From contig CALPRQ020000004.1 in NCBI GenBank assembly GCA_943326015.2, forward strand, positions 1-64,000: a DNA stretch of 64,000 nucleotides, given 5' to 3'. This stretch comes from Chitinophaga pinensis (lineage in GTDB: Bacteria > Pseudomonadota > Gammaproteobacteria > Burkholderiales > Burkholderiaceae_C). Position numbers and translations under genes: made by a program. The notes beneath the pieces are model-generated. The model saw only the letters and a program-made list of their open reading frames with translations, had not been told where the DNA came from and did no database searches. Of the stretch, positions 1,708 to 7,235 are shown piece by piece (positions within the stretch are counted from its first letter, which is position 1; every line of letters starts with the position of its first letter).

Positions 1708-3594
1708 TCAGCCCTTGCAGAAGGCGATGTGATCCCAGGTCGTGGCGCTGGCAATCCGGCCCCAGCCCGAGGTGAGGTTGAGCGTCGCTTCCAGCCACAG
1801 CACATAGGCGCAGGGCGGCAGGCCCGAGATGTCGATCAGCAGGCCGCCTGCCGCAGAGACGGCCTCACCCCCCGCCAGCACGAGCGGCTGGTCGGCCGGC
1901 AGCGGCGGGTTGCCCTCGAAATAGACCCGCCCGCTGGCGACGAAGGGGTGGTAGACCGTGTAGCGCGCGTGCAGTTCGTTGGTCAGCTTGCCGCAACCAG
2001 CGCCGGGGCCGGAGAGCTCGCCGATGTCGAGCGAGACCACCGCCGTCGTGTTGACGATGCTGCCGGCCCAGGACGGGTGGCGCTGATAGCGGTACTCGGT
2101 GTTGCTGAACACGATCTTGTCGAGCGCGTTGCTGCCGGGCAGTGCGGCGTGGCTGCCGTGGTCGCGCGCTTCGAAGAAGACCTTGAAGTAGTGCGCACGC
2201 GACTTGCTGCCCACAGGCACGCCTTGTCCGGCAGCGGTTCCCGGTGCTGGCAGCGTGAGGTCCTGGCTCTCGGAGCTCAGCGCCGTGGTCCTGAGCTGCA
2301 GCAGGTTGCCCAGCGGCACGAAGCGGCCTCGGCCGCCGGGCACGAAATCATTGTCGCGCGGCACCGTGATCCAGCCGTCGGCGCCGATGGCCTGGTTGAC
2401 GGACACCGAGAGCGCCGGCCCGGCGGGCTGCGCAATGCTGACCGTCGCACCCGGCCGGTTGACCCAGTAGTCGGCCGCGCGGATCATCCAGGCGCTGTGC
2501 AGGCTGCTCCAGGCCCAGTATTCGAGCTTGCCAATGATGGTCGGTTCAGCCATGGCCTGCGTCACATCGACCGCGGCGCCCAGCACCATGCCGGTCGGGT
2601 CGTATTCGGCGATGCGGAAGCGGTAGTCGGCGGCCAGGCTGGACGTGGCCTCGGGCAGGATGCCGATCAGCGGGATATTGCCCGTGAAGGCGTAGCTGCC
2701 GCCCGTGGTCAGGCCGTCGGCGGTGAAGTCGCCGTAGACCGGATCGACATGGTACTGGCCGACGTTGGTGAACAGGGGCTGGGTCGGCGGCGTCTCCGAT
2801 GGCGGCGCTTTCTTGATGCACAGCTTGACGCAGTAACAATGTCCGATGTTCTCGCGCGCCGGCGTGCGTGCCTGAGTCCTGGGCTCGATCAGCAGCGGCG
2901 TGCCGTCGGCGGCCTCGATGCGGAAGTAGAGATCGGGGCCGCCGCTCCACTCCAGGTTGATCGCGGGCGAGAAGGGCGTGCGCCGGAAGCTGCTGCCGGT
3001 GTAGTCGATGCGGAACTCGCCCGACGCATCGGTCATGCCGCTGCCGAGCGGGTCGTCCTGGATCCAGTCGGCGTCGAAGGCCAGCACGCGCACGCCCATG
3101 ACCGGGCCCGTGCTGTCGCAGACGGTGACGCGCCCGCAGATCGTCCAGGCATCGAAGCGCGCCCGCACCGCGCACCAGTGGCGGTGCGGGATGCCGTATT
3201 CCCAGGCCGCGATCCAGCCGGTTTCGGTCTGGCGCCATTGCGGCTGCAGCGTCGTGAGCGTGCACTGCAGCGGCTTCGCGTCGGGCCCGGCCCCGCGCAC
3301 GGTGTCGCAGCGCAGGTCGATCTCGAAGGGCTCGCCCGAATATTTCTGCCGCTCGTCGAGCTCGAAGCTGAAGTCGCCCTTCTCGTCGGTCCGGGCCTCG
3401 GCGATCAGGCGTCCGGCCTTGGCCGCGGCTTCCTGTTCGGACAGGATCGCGAACGTATCCTTGGGGCTGGCGACCGCCAGTGCCGTGACCTCGGCCCGCT
3501 CCACGCGGTAGAGGCGCACCTGCACGCCGGACAGCAGTTCGGGGCATTCCGGGCAGATATAGCCGCTCAGGTGGCCCTTGAAGTGGTAGCTCAT
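1708..3594 (-). CDS. Hypothetical beta-rich protein with carboxypeptidase-regulatory-like (transthyretin-like) segments
   Basis: 628 residues, not assigned to a named family. The N terminus (residues 1-110) carries CPEC at 14-17 and then a GVQVRLYRVE ... ARTDEKGDFSFELDE stretch. A second segment at about 150-200 has VCDSTGPVMGVRVLAFDADW then GMTDASGEFRIDY. Both look like the beta-sandwich regulatory domain of carboxypeptidases (CarboxypepD_reg / transthyretin-like). The middle holds a cysteine cluster HCYCVKLC (about 255). The rest is rich in Gly, Thr and Val without membrane segments, and no signal peptide is visible. It is the last gene of the minus-strand unit starting at 5325, 89 bases after its neighbour. 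A structural or substrate-like role in the MNIO pathway is inference only. Confidence 0.72.
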   Translation of the reverse strand: MSYHFKGHLSGYICPECPELLSGVQVRLYRVERAEVTALAVASPKDTFAILSEQEAAAKAGRLIAEARTDEKGDFSFELDERQKYSGEPFEIDLRCDTVRGAGPDAKPLQCTLTTLQPQWRQTETGWIAAWEYGIPHRHWCAVRARFDAWTICGRVTVCDSTGPVMGVRVLAFDADWIQDDPLGSGMTDASGEFRIDYTGSSFRRTPFSPAINLEWSGGPDLYFRIEAADGTPLLIEPRTQARTPARENIGHCYCVKLCIKKAPPSETPPTQPLFTNVGQYHVDPVYGDFTADGLTTGGSYAFTGNIPLIGILPEATSSLAADYRFRIAEYDPTGMVLGAAVDVTQAMAEPTIIGKLEYWAWSSLHSAWMIRAADYWVNRPGATVSIAQPAGPALSVSVNQAIGADGWITVPRDNDFVPGGRGRFVPLGNLLQLRTTALSSESQDLTLPAPGTAAGQGVPVGSKSRAHYFKVFFEARDHGSHAALPGSNALDKIVFSNTEYRYQRHPSWAGSIVNTTAVVSLDIGELSGPGAGCGKLTNELHARYTVYHPFVASGRVYFEGNPPLPADQPLVLAGGEAVSAAGGLLIDISGLPPCAYVLWLEATLNLTSGWGRIASATTWDHIAFCKG

Positions 3595-3683
3595 GTGTGT
3601 TCTCCCTGTCGTCGATCGCCTTGCGGCGGGTTGTGGTGGCCTGGTCCCCGGCCGGGGACAGGCTGCTGCTGGTGACTCGTTGT

Positions 3684-4217
3684 TCAGCCGGAGTCGGTTG
3701 GCCGTGGCTCGCAGGCGTAGCCGCCTGACAGCGCGCGGCTAACCGTCACCCGGTGCGGGATCGGCTCGCCCGTCATCTCGATGTGGCCGCTGCCGATGAT
3801 CGCGGCCAGCACTGGCCCTGGGTCGCAGGGCCAGTCCACTGTCCGGCTCTCGGCGGGGTCGTAGCGGGTCTCGTGCAGTGCGATCTCGAAGCGGGCCAGT
3901 GCCTGCACTACCGGGTCGGGGTCGCCGCTCAGGTGGCGCAGGAACTGCTGGCCGGCCTCTGCGACGTCGGGCGAGAACTCACCGCCGGCGATGAAGCGCT
4001 GGATGGCGGCATCGAAGCGCCCCTGGCGCTTGAGCCAGCCCGAGCTCAGCACGCAATAGCGTTCCAGCGCGTGCGCGCGCCAGAAGCCGATCACCTCGCG
4101 CACGACGGCCAGCCCGGTCGACCCCGTCAGGCTCTGCGCGTAGGCGGGGTCGTCGGGTTCGGCGGCTGCGCCAATGACGAGTCGGCGCAGGCTGCGTTGG
4201 TAGGTCTGGAGGTCCAT
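3684..4217 (-). CDS. Small helical protein, putative partner of the MNIO enzyme
   Basis: 177 residues, predicted mostly helical and soluble. I do not recognise the family with certainty. Its position directly after a DUF692 enzyme (5-base gap) is where BufC/TglI/MbnC partner proteins are found in known MNIO clusters, and those proteins bind the precursor peptide and the enzyme. Visible features are LQTYQRSLRRLVIG (3-16), an aromatic/His helix FWRAHALERYCVLSSGW (about 46-62), and ARFEIALHETRYDP (about 107-120), which resembles the ARxEWA-type helix in DUF2063/BufC proteins. The assignment rests more on position than on sequence. A generic hypothetical protein is the alternative. Confidence 0.7.
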   Translation of the reverse strand: MDLQTYQRSLRRLVIGAAAEPDDPAYAQSLTGSTGLAVVREVIGFWRAHALERYCVLSSGWLKRQGRFDAAIQRFIAGGEFSPDVAEAGQQFLRHLSGDPDPVVQALARFEIALHETRYDPAESRTVDWPCDPGPVLAAIIGSGHIEMTGEPIPHRVTVSRALSGGYACEPRPTDSG

Positions 4218-4222
4218 GGCGT

Positions 4223-5065
4223 TCAGGCGAGCAGCGTTTCGAGCTGTTCGATTTCGTCGGCCCAGGCCGGGTGCCCGAGCACCGGCAGCGTCTCGGGCAT
4301 GACCTCATAGATGACGGCCTCGACCGCAGGCGCACGGGTCAGTACCTCGGGCAGCAGCTGGCGCGTGCTGTCGCGCGTCCGGCGCGAATGGATGTCGAGC
4401 ATCAGGCCTGAATGCTCGGTGCCACCGGCCAGATGGAGCTCGCGCACGCGGCTCAGGTCGAGTTCGGCCAGGAAGTCGGCCGCTGCGTAGCCCTGGTTGT
4501 GCGCGTTGCATTCCAGGTTGTAGAGGTCGAGCAGCAGGCCGCAGCCGCTCTCTTGAGCCAGCCGATTCAGGAAGGCGGCCTCGCTCATTTCGGCTGGCGG
4601 GTCGGGCAGCAGGTTGACGGTGTTTTCGAGCAGGAAGGGCAGGGGGTAGCGCGCCAGGATGCGGCGCGCCCGCTCTGCTACCAGCTCCAGTGCCTCCTGC
4701 GTGCGCGGCAAGGCCAGCATGGTGCCGGTGAAATGGCCATCCACATGGGTGAAGGCCAGATGCTCGCTGTGCCAGGCGACTGGAACCGTATCGAGGATCT
4801 GGTCCAGCAGCCGGAAATAATCCTCGTTCCAGTCATCCGCCGAGCCGATCGAAAGCCCGACGCCGTGGACGATGAGCGTGGCCTGCTCGGCCATGCTTTC
4901 GAGCTGGCGCAGCGTCTGCGGCGGGATCCGCGTGCGCCGTCCCTCCCTGACTGCCAGCGTCTCGGGTATCAGTTCGACATAGTCGACCAGCGGCAGGATG
5001 CGCTCGACGAAGGCCGGATCGGCGGCTTCGTAGCTGGTGCCGATGCGGGCCTTCACGCGCTTCAC
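4223..5065 (-). CDS. DUF692 / MNIO-family multinuclear non-heme iron oxidative enzyme
   Basis: 280 residues, the usual length for the MbnB/BufB/TglH family, TIM-barrel enzymes that use two or three iron ions and O2 to modify cysteine (or other) residues of ribosomal peptides. The expected metal and active-site positions are present in order: HGVGLSIGS (H67), WHSEHL (H99, E101, H102), LLENTVN (E147, N148), LLLDLYNLECNAHN (D180, N183, H189), RELHLAGG (E209, H211), LDIHS (D224, H226) and YEVMPE (E254). The N terminus RIGTSYE replaces the more usual GLGLR start. It overlaps the 87-residue peptide gene by 4 bases (ATGA), so enzyme and peptide are coupled. Family membership is firm; the reaction is not known from sequence. 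Confidence 0.87.
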   Translation of the reverse strand: MKRVKARIGTSYEAADPAFVERILPLVDYVELIPETLAVREGRRTRIPPQTLRQLESMAEQATLIVHGVGLSIGSADDWNEDYFRLLDQILDTVPVAWHSEHLAFTHVDGHFTGTMLALPRTQEALELVAERARRILARYPLPFLLENTVNLLPDPPAEMSEAAFLNRLAQESGCGLLLDLYNLECNAHNQGYAAADFLAELDLSRVRELHLAGGTEHSGLMLDIHSRRTRDSTRQLLPEVLTRAPAVEAVIYEVMPETLPVLGHPAWADEIEQLETLLA

Positions 5066-5325
5066 TGGTGCAGCGTGACGTCTGCGACCGCGGGGATCTT
5101 CTTGAACGCCTCGCTCAGCAGCGGGTCCTGCTGGCGGATCAGGATGTCGAGGCCACCGAGGCCGCAGGGCGCGCAGCCATGCAGATGCACGATGGTGTCG
5201 ACGATCTCGTGCAGCGAGGCGCGCGTGATCTCCTGGCCCACGGTGACTTGCAGCGTGCCGGGGCGCAGCTTGCCGGTGCCGAACTGCGAGGCGTTGAGGT
5301 TGGCGGTTTTTTCCTGCTCTGTCAT
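5062..5325 (-). CDS. Short Cys-containing peptide, candidate MNIO substrate
   Basis: 87 residues with no signal peptide. The centre has HLHGCAPCGLGGLDIL at 47-62, with the only two cysteines at C51 and C54. The leader-like N-terminal half is polar, and the tail is short (FKKIPAVADVTLHQ). Known MNIO enzymes act on Cys residues of small peptides encoded next to them, and this is the first gene of the operon with a good ribosome site (AGGGAG, 6 bases before ATG). These facts make it the likely precursor. It could instead be a small metal-binding or redox accessory protein, as CxxC with nearby histidines also fits that. Confidence 0.75.
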   Translation of the reverse strand: MTEQEKTANLNASQFGTGKLRPGTLQVTVGQEITRASLHEIVDTIVHLHGCAPCGLGGLDILIRQQDPLLSEAFKKIPAVADVTLHQ

Positions 5326-5383: not shown

Positions 5384-5413
5384 AGTCTATGGGGTCAAAC
5401 AGGAAAATGTCAA
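5384..5413 (-). promoter_or_regulatory. Candidate sigma-70 promoter of the MNIO operon
   Basis: On the minus strand there is a perfect -35 box TTGACA (5413-5408), an 18-base spacer and a -10-like TAGACT (5389-5384, four of six consensus bases), about 60 bases upstream of the peptide ATG. No other good promoter is visible in the 131 bases between this operon and the diguanylate cyclase gene, whose stop lies at 5457. Confidence 0.5.
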
Positions 5414-5456: not shown

Positions 5457-7235
5457 TCAGGCCGGCTTGGCTGCGACCAGGCGGTTGCGGCCAGCCCGCT
5501 TGGCGGCGTAGAGGCAGGCGTCGGCCTCGCGCAGCGGCGTGTCCTCGTCAGGCGTGCTCGCAGTCGCCAGTGCCAGGCCCAGGCTGATCGTGATGAGGCC
5601 GGCGTCGGTGTCGGGGCAGGACTCGATCGCGCGCCTGAGCTTCTCGGCCACCCGCGTTGCGGCGTCGAGGCCGGTGTCGGGCAGCAGCACGAGGAACTCC
5701 TCGCCACCCCAGCGGGCGACGAAGTCGCTTTCGCGCAGCGATTGCGCCAGCGCCCGTCCCACCCGCTGCAGCACGCGGTCGCCTACGGCATGGCCAAAGC
5801 CGTCGTTGACGCGCTTGAAATGGTCGATGTCGATCAGCAGCACGGCGTAGGGCTGGCCCCTGCGCTGCAGCGCGACGAATTCCAGGTGACGGCGCTCGTT
5901 GGCCGCCAGGCGGTTGGGCAGGCCGGTCAACGCGTCGTGGCGGGCCAATTGGCGCAGTTCCTCGTTGGCTGCGAGCAGCTCGGTCGTGCGCGCCTCGACC
6001 TTGGCCTCGAGTTCGGCGTTGAGTTCCAGGATCTGCAGTTCCGCCTGCTTGTGCGCGGTCACGTCGATGCAGACACCCGCCAGCTCGGTCGCGCGGCCCT
6101 GTGCATCGCGCGTGACCTGGCCATGGCAATCGATCCAGATCACCTCGCCGTCTGGCCGCAGCAGGCGGTAGGCTTCAATGAAGCTGTCACTGTATTTGAC
6201 GATATATCCCAGGCGCTCACGCATCATTTCCCGATCTGCCGGATGCAGGTGGCCCAGCCAGGCCTCGAGGTTCGCGCAATGCCGGGCCGGGTCCAGGCCG
6301 AGCAGCCGGAACATCTCGGGTGACCATTCCGCCTGGTCATGGATGCAGTCCCAGCGCCAGGCTCCTGCGCCTGCCGCGCGCTCGGCAACCGTCAGGATCT
6401 CGGAGGTCTGGCGCCAGGCCTTCTCCTGCTGTTTGCGCTCGGTGATGTCGAGTGCCAGCATCATGTGGCTGTCGACCTTGCCATCGGCATCGCGGTGCAC
6501 CGTGACAGCGAGCTGCAGCCAGTAGGGCTCGCCGTCGACACGCAGCACGCGGTGTTCGACGACGAAGTGGCGCTTTTCCTGCAGGACGCGGCTTTGCAGT
6601 TGTTCGGCGATCTTGCGATTTTCCTTGCGCGTGACTTCCGTGGTCAGTCGCCCCAGCAGACTGTCGCGCATGCGGCCCAGGATGGCGCAGAAGCGGTCGT
6701 TGACCAGGATGTAGCGGCCTTGCGTATCGGTCTGCGCCACGCCGACGATGTCCTGCTCCAGCAGCGCGGACAGGCGCTGCTGCTGTTCAAGCCGGATCGC
6801 CGTCTCGCGCGCCGCCGCCAGTTCGCGCTCGGTCCTTTTCTGTGCCGAGATGTCGCGCCACAGGACGTAGAGCAGGTTCTGTTCGCGGTGCTGGATCGGT
6901 GTCAGCAGAATGCTGGCCGTGAAGGGCTCGCCGTCGGCGCGCAGGTGTTCCCACTCGAATTCATGGCTGCCTTGCTCGCGCGCCAGGCGGATCATCTTGG
7001 CGGCTTTTTCGGTCGATGGCTGGCCGTCGGGCTGGCAGGGTGGCGAGAGGTCGGCCGGAGTGAGTTGCAGGAACTCCTCCAGCCGCTGTACGCGCATCAT
7101 TTCGAGCGAGGCGCGGTTGGCCGCGATAAAGCGTTCATCCTCCATCAGCAGCGCGGGGTAGCGGGCCTGCTCGAACAGCGCGCGAAAACATCCCTCGCTT
7201 GCCTCAAGGCAGTGGGCGGATTCAGTCTGGGGCAT
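5457..7235 (-). CDS. PAS-domain diguanylate cyclase (GGDEF)
   Basis: 592 residues, soluble. Three PAS-type sensor modules lie in a row: about 12-135 (ending WRDISAQKR), about 150-275 (ending LDITERKQQ) and about 285-410 (ending CIDVTAHKQ). A short coiled coil (about 410-440) then leads into a GGDEF domain. The catalytic motif is GGEEF at 510-514, and an inhibitory RxxD site (RESD) lies five residues before it, so the cyclase is probably active and feedback-inhibited by c-di-GMP. DALTGLPNR marks the domain start. There are no EAL residues. What the PAS domains sense is unknown. It is transcribed alone, downstream of the rpmB-rpmG terminator. Confidence 0.92.
   Translation of the reverse strand: MPQTESAHCLEASEGCFRALFEQARYPALLMEDERFIAANRASLEMMRVQRLEEFLQLTPADLSPPCQPDGQPSTEKAAKMIRLAREQGSHEFEWEHLRADGEPFTASILLTPIQHREQNLLYVLWRDISAQKRTERELAAARETAIRLEQQQRLSALLEQDIVGVAQTDTQGRYILVNDRFCAILGRMRDSLLGRLTTEVTRKENRKIAEQLQSRVLQEKRHFVVEHRVLRVDGEPYWLQLAVTVHRDADGKVDSHMMLALDITERKQQEKAWRQTSEILTVAERAAGAGAWRWDCIHDQAEWSPEMFRLLGLDPARHCANLEAWLGHLHPADREMMRERLGYIVKYSDSFIEAYRLLRPDGEVIWIDCHGQVTRDAQGRATELAGVCIDVTAHKQAELQILELNAELEAKVEARTTELLAANEELRQLARHDALTGLPNRLAANERRHLEFVALQRRGQPYAVLLIDIDHFKRVNDGFGHAVGDRVLQRVGRALAQSLRESDFVARWGGEEFLVLLPDTGLDAATRVAEKLRRAIESCPDTDAGLITISLGLALATASTPDEDTPLREADACLYAAKRAGRNRLVAAKPA

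Follow-up and report, generated by a model that had tools for sequence, protein, structure and literature searches.

A conserved MNIO gene cluster of probable RiPP type in Malikia, with a CxxC precursor lacking an apparent signal peptide and a large companion gene

Among the precursors of the peptide-modifying MNIO (DUF692) enzymes, most carry Sec signal peptides, and across the MNIO survey of Antoine et al. (2025, PMC12452194) missing signal peptides correlate with partner proteins of type 2. (Papers cited by PMC number are cited from excerpts, and statements about them apply to those excerpts.) Adjamnio-1 and adjamnio-2 are signal-peptide-less putative precursors with type-2 partners, and adjamnio-7 is a family of signal-peptide-less putative precursors with a CxxC motif (PMC12452194); our literature search found no work beyond this survey on adjamnio or on MNIO precursors in connection with signal peptides and CxxC. 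The largest MNIO product groups have been tied to copper (PMC12668002, PMC12452194), and the PME1-type clusters to 5-thiooxazole and copper (PMC12668002). Here we describe a cluster of four genes, encoding an 87-residue peptide, an MNIO enzyme, a putative partner protein and a 628-residue protein, on the minus strand of a 64,000-nucleotide stretch of DNA (the whole stretch analysed, hereafter "the window"; contig C4 of a 3.26 Mb source genome), deposited under Chitinophaga pinensis (GCA_943326015.2). The window genome belongs to the genus Malikia (Comamonadaceae). The cluster is a real and conserved MNIO cluster of the ribosomally synthesized and post-translationally modified peptide (RiPP) type, a variant of a kind already described. 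Its enzyme type is known, its peptide looks new, and its fourth gene is new.

A preliminary description, made from the sequence of the window, had proposed a possible new MNIO cluster in which an 87-residue CxxC peptide is followed by an overlapping DUF692 gene, a third gene 5 bases on and a 628-residue protein. All four are present as minus-strand open reading frames (ORFs) at the positions given in Table 1: the peptide stop and the MNIO start overlap by 4 bases (GTGA), and the partner gene begins 5 bases past the MNIO stop. The unit of MNIO, partner and Cys-containing peptide has thus stood, whereas the word "new" holds only in part, because signal-peptide-less CxxC precursors are already described in PMC12452194. 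It should be mentioned that only one MNIO was detected in the window genome.

Table 1. Features of the cluster in the window (positions counted from the first letter of the window)
Feature	Position	Strand	Basis
Sigma-70-type promoter-like site TTGACA-18-TAGACT, before the peptide gene	5384..5413	-	10/12 consensus match
Putative precursor peptide, 87 aa, without apparent signal peptide	5062..5325	-	ORF; relatives in 4 further genomes
CxxC (Cys51-Ala-Pro-Cys54), putative modification site	5164..5175	-	both Cys invariant in 6/6 aligned peptides
MNIO (DUF692) enzyme, 280 aa, GTG start	4223..5065	-	PF05114 E 1e-54; nine TglH ligand counterparts
Putative type-2 (TglI-like) MNIO partner, 177 aa	3684..4217	-	AlphaFold2 model; best PDB match TglI
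Large companion protein, 628 aa	1708..3594	-	PF01060 in first half; relatives in each of the 5 genomes found with the cluster

Judging from genome comparison, the four genes are inherited together, beyond what chance would give. A contig scan with the MNIO pair recovered four loci from 57 pattern matches, which belong to a metagenome-assembled genome (MAG) of Malikia sp. (L009), a Burkholderiales MAG counted here as Malikia (L010), M. spinosa (L011) and a Methylophilaceae MAG (L012). With the window, these make four Malikia genomes and one Methylophilaceae genome, and all four proteins have relatives in every one of the five (the match list for the four loci was assigned to them by coordinates and identities). 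The co-occurrence of the cluster genes in other genomes, for which the preliminary description had asked, was found accordingly: peptide and MNIO stand together in all five. The identities of the peptides in the four further genomes to that of the window are 97, 76, 76 and 57 %, and the MNIO of the Malikia sp. MAG is 95 % identical to the window enzyme. In the Methylophilaceae MAG, the MNIO, peptide and partner genes are adjacent (68, 57 and 51 % identical to their window counterparts), and the gene for the large protein lies about 2.6 kb from this trio on the other strand, in divergent orientation, its product being related in the C part only (53 %). Relative to the M. spinosa genes, the ratios of non-synonymous to synonymous substitution rates (dN/dS) are 0.17 for the peptide, 0.22 for the MNIO, 0.34 for the partner and 0.35 for the large protein, all of them well below 1.

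The MNIO is present in four of the five Malikia genomes. In the fifth (G764, locus L055), about 100 bases separate the stop codon of rpmG from the end of the ABC transporter gene, and the cluster is missing from this interval; here the MNIO was sought genome-wide, and the absence of peptide, partner and large protein refers to the site itself. More broadly, the peptide was found in 2 of 150 genomes of the family, both Malikia, and, one spurious match aside, in the window genome alone among 398 from the phylum. The window genome is also the sole carrier of the C part of the large protein among 349 phylum genomes. An MNIO at E <= 1e-50 (single-protein query) occurs in 1 of 250 genomes of the order, again the window's own, and some MNIO (E <= 1e-10, profile query) in 118 of the 250; in the order-wide profile search, one genome besides the window's own stands out (G351, 178.9 bits; next 129.8). 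The peptide has no match on plasmids, the viral contigs contain no relative of the peptide, the C part of the large protein or the MNIO (24, 72 and 112 pattern-matching stretches, respectively), and none of the four cluster proteins matches PHROGs or PADLOC. A peptide match in another genome (G490, L005; E 0.007) runs antisense to an ORF resembling a solute-binding protein and was discarded as noise.

The enzyme matches PF05114 (MbnB_TglH_ChrH) with 186 bits against a cut-off of 25. In TglH, the iron ligands are His71, His107, Glu151, Asp184, His216 and Glu258 together with Asn187, Asp229 and His231 (PMC10880893), and their counterparts in the window enzyme are H67, H102, E147, D180, H211 and E254 together with N183, D224 and H226. 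The direct alignment with TglH covers the C-terminal part, starting before E147, and H67 and H102 were placed via 3BWW and by position. Eight of these residues (H67, H102, E147, D180, N183, H211, D224 and H226) are invariant in all nine aligned MNIOs; E254 is invariant in the five close ones and pairs with Glu258 of TglH in the profile alignment, and in the five bufferin-type enzymes of the alignment the corresponding Glu stands one column earlier. In other words, the window MNIO has, by sequence, kept the multi-iron ligand set, in agreement with the DUF692 enzyme with the expected metal-site motifs that had been noted at the outset.

The peptide carries Cys51 and Cys54 within the stretch LHGCAPCGLGG. 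Its N terminus is hydrophilic (the best 12-residue mean hydropathy over the first 41 residues is 0.37), and no Sec signal peptide is apparent from hydropathy, no dedicated predictor having been run; nor does the peptide have any Pfam or NCBIfam match at E <= 1, the DUF2282 signature of bufferins included. The initial impression of a precursor without the signal peptide of bufferins and unlike the methanobactin and TglA peptides is in keeping with these results. Across six aligned peptides (the five close ones and those of the distant genomes G351 and G186, described below), only G50, C51, C54, G58 and D60 are invariant besides Met1, and the spacing from the second Cys to the Gly is one residue shorter in the G351 and G186 peptides in this alignment. 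The Cys54-Gly55 dyad is found in all five close peptides, and the second Cys is followed by Leu in the G351 peptide and by His in that of G186.

These two distant genomes contain arrangements of the same kind. G351, from another family of the same order, encodes a 67-residue peptide with GCRPCLSGLD, 12 bases before a 304-residue MNIO that is 38 % identical to the window enzyme (168 bits) and overlaps by 4 bases the gene for a 192-residue partner, which matches the full length of the DUF2063 profile, though weakly (E 0.008). In G186 (L042 931-2559, minus strand), a 76-residue peptide with GCTACHSGYD directly precedes a 464-residue fusion protein, in which a partner-like domain follows the MNIO catalytic part (92 % probability at E 5e-7 when aligned by hhalign with the partner profile). 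Outside G351 and the runner-up loci described below, the genes upstream of the MNIO in the order-wide set were checked by motif patterns only, and the G186 locus was found in this way. The pattern G-C-x-x-C-x-x-G is present in 19 of 61 loci, of which 15 belong to the cluster family, three, which overlap, to G351 and one to G186. In most of the 15 family loci, a second such site lies on the other strand; these sites, inside the family MNIO genes, and a GCxPC inside the MNIO ORF of L033 were dropped as precursor candidates. At the runner-up loci (L046, L047, L048, L033 and, in part, L035), a multi-Cys ORF stands before each MNIO, with a bufferin-like signal stretch in L046, L048 and L033 and a longer ORF without an obvious one in L047 and L035, and no CxxC peptide of the window kind was seen at any of the five. 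A further gene near the G351 trio (L045 11165-14299) encodes 1044 residues with long helical-looking repeats and a HEMTH motif.

Because the genes co-occur, and because CxxC peptides recur before MNIO genes in two distant genomes, the RiPP-type reading, with an MNIO, its partner and a Cys-containing peptide substrate, is well supported at the level of sequence.

The 177-residue protein has no Pfam or NCBIfam match at E <= 1. Its AlphaFold2 model (pLDDT 75.7, pTM 0.71, from five sequences) is helical in its N-terminal part and beta-alpha-beta-beta in its C-terminal part; therefore, of the small helical protein that had been described here, the position and size hold, and the purely helical nature does not. 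Foldseek matches the model to TglI of the TglHI complex (E 0.012, probability 0.99), and VIA-align gives Z 9.4-9.6 over 156-159 of the 177 residues (root-mean-square deviation 5.4-5.5, identity 13 %). Among the 260 chains aligned, the next rows are MbnC, whose Z of 4.2 does not rise above noise, and unrelated chains at 4.0 or below; NGO1945 is not among the rows shown. We trust the match to TglI because its score is far higher than those of the other rows, because it extends over most of the model and because the gene position leads one to expect it, so that the protein is probably an MNIO partner of type 2, TglI-like in its modelled fold.

The fourth protein, apparently rich in beta structure, has a single Pfam match above cut-off, transthyretin-like PF01060 (E 8e-6, residues 159-213), and 13 Cys; its second half (about residues 270-628) is unclassified. 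The AlphaFold2 model is made mostly of strands and is unusable (pLDDT 45.3), and the protein has no useful sequence match in the PDB (best E 0.58) and no phage match. Its relatives on plasmids resemble it to different extents. A Salinibacter ruber plasmid protein is 27 % identical over 89 % of the length and also keeps Cys534, Cys595 and Cys626. In the first half, residues 1-309 share 34 % identity with the beginning of a long Streptomyces plasmid protein (L007 5701-12918), in which the transthyretin-like module is followed, by eye, by NHL/YD-like repeats; the gene table of L007, which is incomplete, lists no gene at this position. NHL and YD repeats occur together in bacterial teneurin-like proteins (PMC13018210). 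Residues 148-270 are 29 % identical to a stretch of an Allocoleopsis plasmid protein (L014 11698-19350), which is annotated as neuraminidase-like and lies near an SpvB/TcaC-type gene. Both the Streptomyces and the Allocoleopsis proteins thus contain a transthyretin-like module akin to the first half of the large protein. A link to toxins, suggested by the resemblance of the first half to the start of a YD-repeat-like protein and to a stretch of a Tc-like one, was rejected, since it had no other support. The 628-residue protein has no NHL, YD or toxin match in Pfam.

In the Methylophilaceae MAG, the large protein (L012 1058-3133, minus strand; no plasmid match) keeps the second half only, and in place of the first half it has four stretches with a Cys at every fourth residue. 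These C-x3-C ladders, at residues 62-78, 135-151, 218-238 and 298-318, hold 22 Cys in register out of 30 in all. They recall the Cys-lined helices known from the Csp copper storage proteins (PMC9484137), and the region has no Pfam match. Next to this gene is one for a papain-like peptidase (L012 3473-4384), whose relative in the window genome (61 % identical) lies on another contig (C30; L059 6979-13892) among OmpA-like, PP2C, type-VI-type FHA and Ser/Thr-kinase genes. Among 39 other genomes, the peptidase was found only in one Malikia genome (G766) and in G380, and it is missing from three other Malikia genomes; with so narrow a distribution, it was ruled out as a fixed partner of the large protein.

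Taken as a whole, we consider it probable that the cluster encodes an MNIO pathway of the RiPP type, in which Cys of the peptide are oxidised, the product is cytosolic and putatively binds a soft metal, and the 628-residue protein may be its client. By analogy with TglHI and MbnBC, the partner would dock on the MNIO, recruit the 87-residue peptide and present its GCxxC stretch, and the MNIO would, in line with the chemistry of its family, oxidise Cys51 and/or Cys54 with O2. The product might be of the thiooxazole type, as in bufferins, or arise from other Cys chemistry. Because the peptide has no apparent export signal, the product would probably stay in the cytosol, or leave only after processing. 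Two altered Cys placed two residues apart could form a compact site for a soft metal, perhaps copper, and we guess that the 628-residue protein serves the product as a dedicated client, by binding or receiving it. The idea of a metal comes from the large protein, which is rich in Cys in both its Malikia and its L012 versions, and this is suggestive only. The copper ties of the largest MNIO product groups (PMC12668002, PMC12452194) speak for the same idea. A more specific form, in which the modified peptide of an intracellular soft-metal system carries the metal to the large protein for storage or use and the metal-binding first half of the latter is exchangeable between lineages, seems to us unlikely as it stands; the exchanged halves may then be the Cys-containing transthyretin-like module in Malikia and the four Cys-ladder stretches in the Methylophilaceae MAG.

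Several observations weigh against this probable pathway or parts of it. The genes closest to the cluster (an amino-acid-type ABC transporter gene, rpmG/rpmB and a PAS-GGDEF gene) are not copper genes, and no MNIO is found among the annotated neighbours of the Salinibacter relative, whose gene table is incomplete. The one G351 neighbour compared, the 1044-residue protein, is unrelated to the large protein. As for the partner, the fold tool warns that a Z of less than about 13 may reflect a common arrangement when the model is helical; hhalign gives a probability of just 31 % between the G351 and window partners (E 5e-4), and of 15 % between the window partner and four DUF2063-type proteins. 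Beyond the motif, the precursors are only weakly similar (hhalign probability 25 % for G351 and 2 % for G186). Finally, a Cys-Gly preference has been reported for FonB (PMC12668002), and it does not hold generally here because each Cys of the distant peptides is followed by varying residues.

On another reading, the peptide would be a folded, unmodified small metal or redox protein whose CxxC serves as a ligand or a dithiol, and the MNIO would act elsewhere, for example on Cys of the 628-residue protein. Some MNIOs have been argued to modify proteins (PMC12452194), the large protein offers its 13 Cys and the L012 relative 30, and by eye the peptide sequence resembles a small alpha/beta protein more than a leader with a short core. 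However, a CxxC peptide stands directly before the MNIO in both G351 and G186, in the former without a relative of the large protein in the neighbour compared; Met1 aside, the six peptides have no invariant residues other than those of the motif (Gly-Cys, Cys, Gly and Asp); and the large-protein Cys534, Cys595 and Cys626 are shared with the Salinibacter protein, which has no annotated MNIO in its neighbourhood. We therefore hold this reading to be rather unlikely. A copper-sequestering system like those of bufferins and captophorins, minus the export signal, would fit with BufB being the best NCBIfam equivalog of the enzyme, but the score of 160 bits is about half of the cut-off of 310 (the scores for HvfB, ApyH and ChrH are also below their cut-offs, and that for MbnB is 26.8 bits against 325), no signal peptide is apparent, the precursor contains a single CxxC instead of many Cys, and none of the five close partners matches DUF2063 in Pfam, so that such a system is quite improbable. 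The Cys of TglA is appended at the C terminus of its scaffold by a peptide-aminoacyl ligase. A pathway like that of the pearlins, in which a small molecule would be cut out of a scaffold in the manner of TglHI, is highly improbable, even with TglI nearest to the partner model, since TglHI removes the Cys beta carbon in TglA-Cys (PMC10880893), the window Cys are internal (51 and 54 of 87), and no peptide-aminoacyl ligase was seen by eye among the neighbouring ORFs, no profile search having been made.

The cluster is set between rpmB/rpmG and a PAS-GGDEF gene on one side and a convergent amino-acid-type ABC transporter gene on the other (PAS-GGDEF was recognised by Pfam and the others by eye). 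The hexamers of the promoter-like site and their 18-base spacing, read by eye, are kept in the four Malikia loci (the window, L009, L010 and L011) among differing surrounding bases, and the site was not seen in the Methylophilaceae locus. The PAS-GGDEF gene (window 5457-7235), between rpmG and the cluster, is also found in L009 at 81 % identity, and in M. spinosa (L004) the interval from rpmB to the peptide gene contains no ORF of this kind. Because it is missing from that interval, we place it outside the inherited unit, and it appears to have been gained or lost independently of the cluster.

If the pathway we favour is true, a conserved MNIO system with a non-exported CxxC substrate and a large companion would give an entry to the little-studied intracellular chemistry of MNIO enzymes, and the compact set of four genes, together with a related genome in which the site is empty, makes a convenient test case.

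Among the known systems, TglHI (PDB 8HI7, 8HCI) has nine Fe ligands with counterparts in the window enzyme, and its TglI is the closest fold to the partner model. In TglI, a RiPP recognition element (RRE) domain comprises three strands and several helices, whereas the window partner has only a short beta-alpha-beta-beta tail, and the substrate of TglHI is the TglA-Cys scaffold (PMC10880893), in contrast to a peptide with internal Cys. With methanobactin MbnABC, the cluster shares a small Cys peptide, an MNIO and a partner, although the score of the MbnB equivalog is not reached. The bufferin, oxazolin and captophorin systems (BufB, HvfB, FonB) share the MNIO superfamily and the order precursor-MNIO-partner, and their precursors differ in carrying Sec signals and several to many Cys, with DUF2063 partners of type 1 (PMC12452194, PMC12668002). 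The nearest descriptions are those of the adjamnio families, compared here by description only: adjamnio-7 shares with the window peptide the lack of a signal peptide, the CxxC and the adjoining MNIO, and adjamnio-1 and adjamnio-2 share with the cluster a signal-peptide-less precursor and a type-2 partner. The window cluster fits the correlation between signal-peptide-less precursors and type-2 partners. No large companion gene is mentioned for the adjamnio families in the excerpts of PMC12452194, whereas the window cluster has its 628-residue gene, and to that extent the early remark that the fourth gene has no counterpart in the described clusters still applies. The fourth gene is a conserved new element of the cluster.

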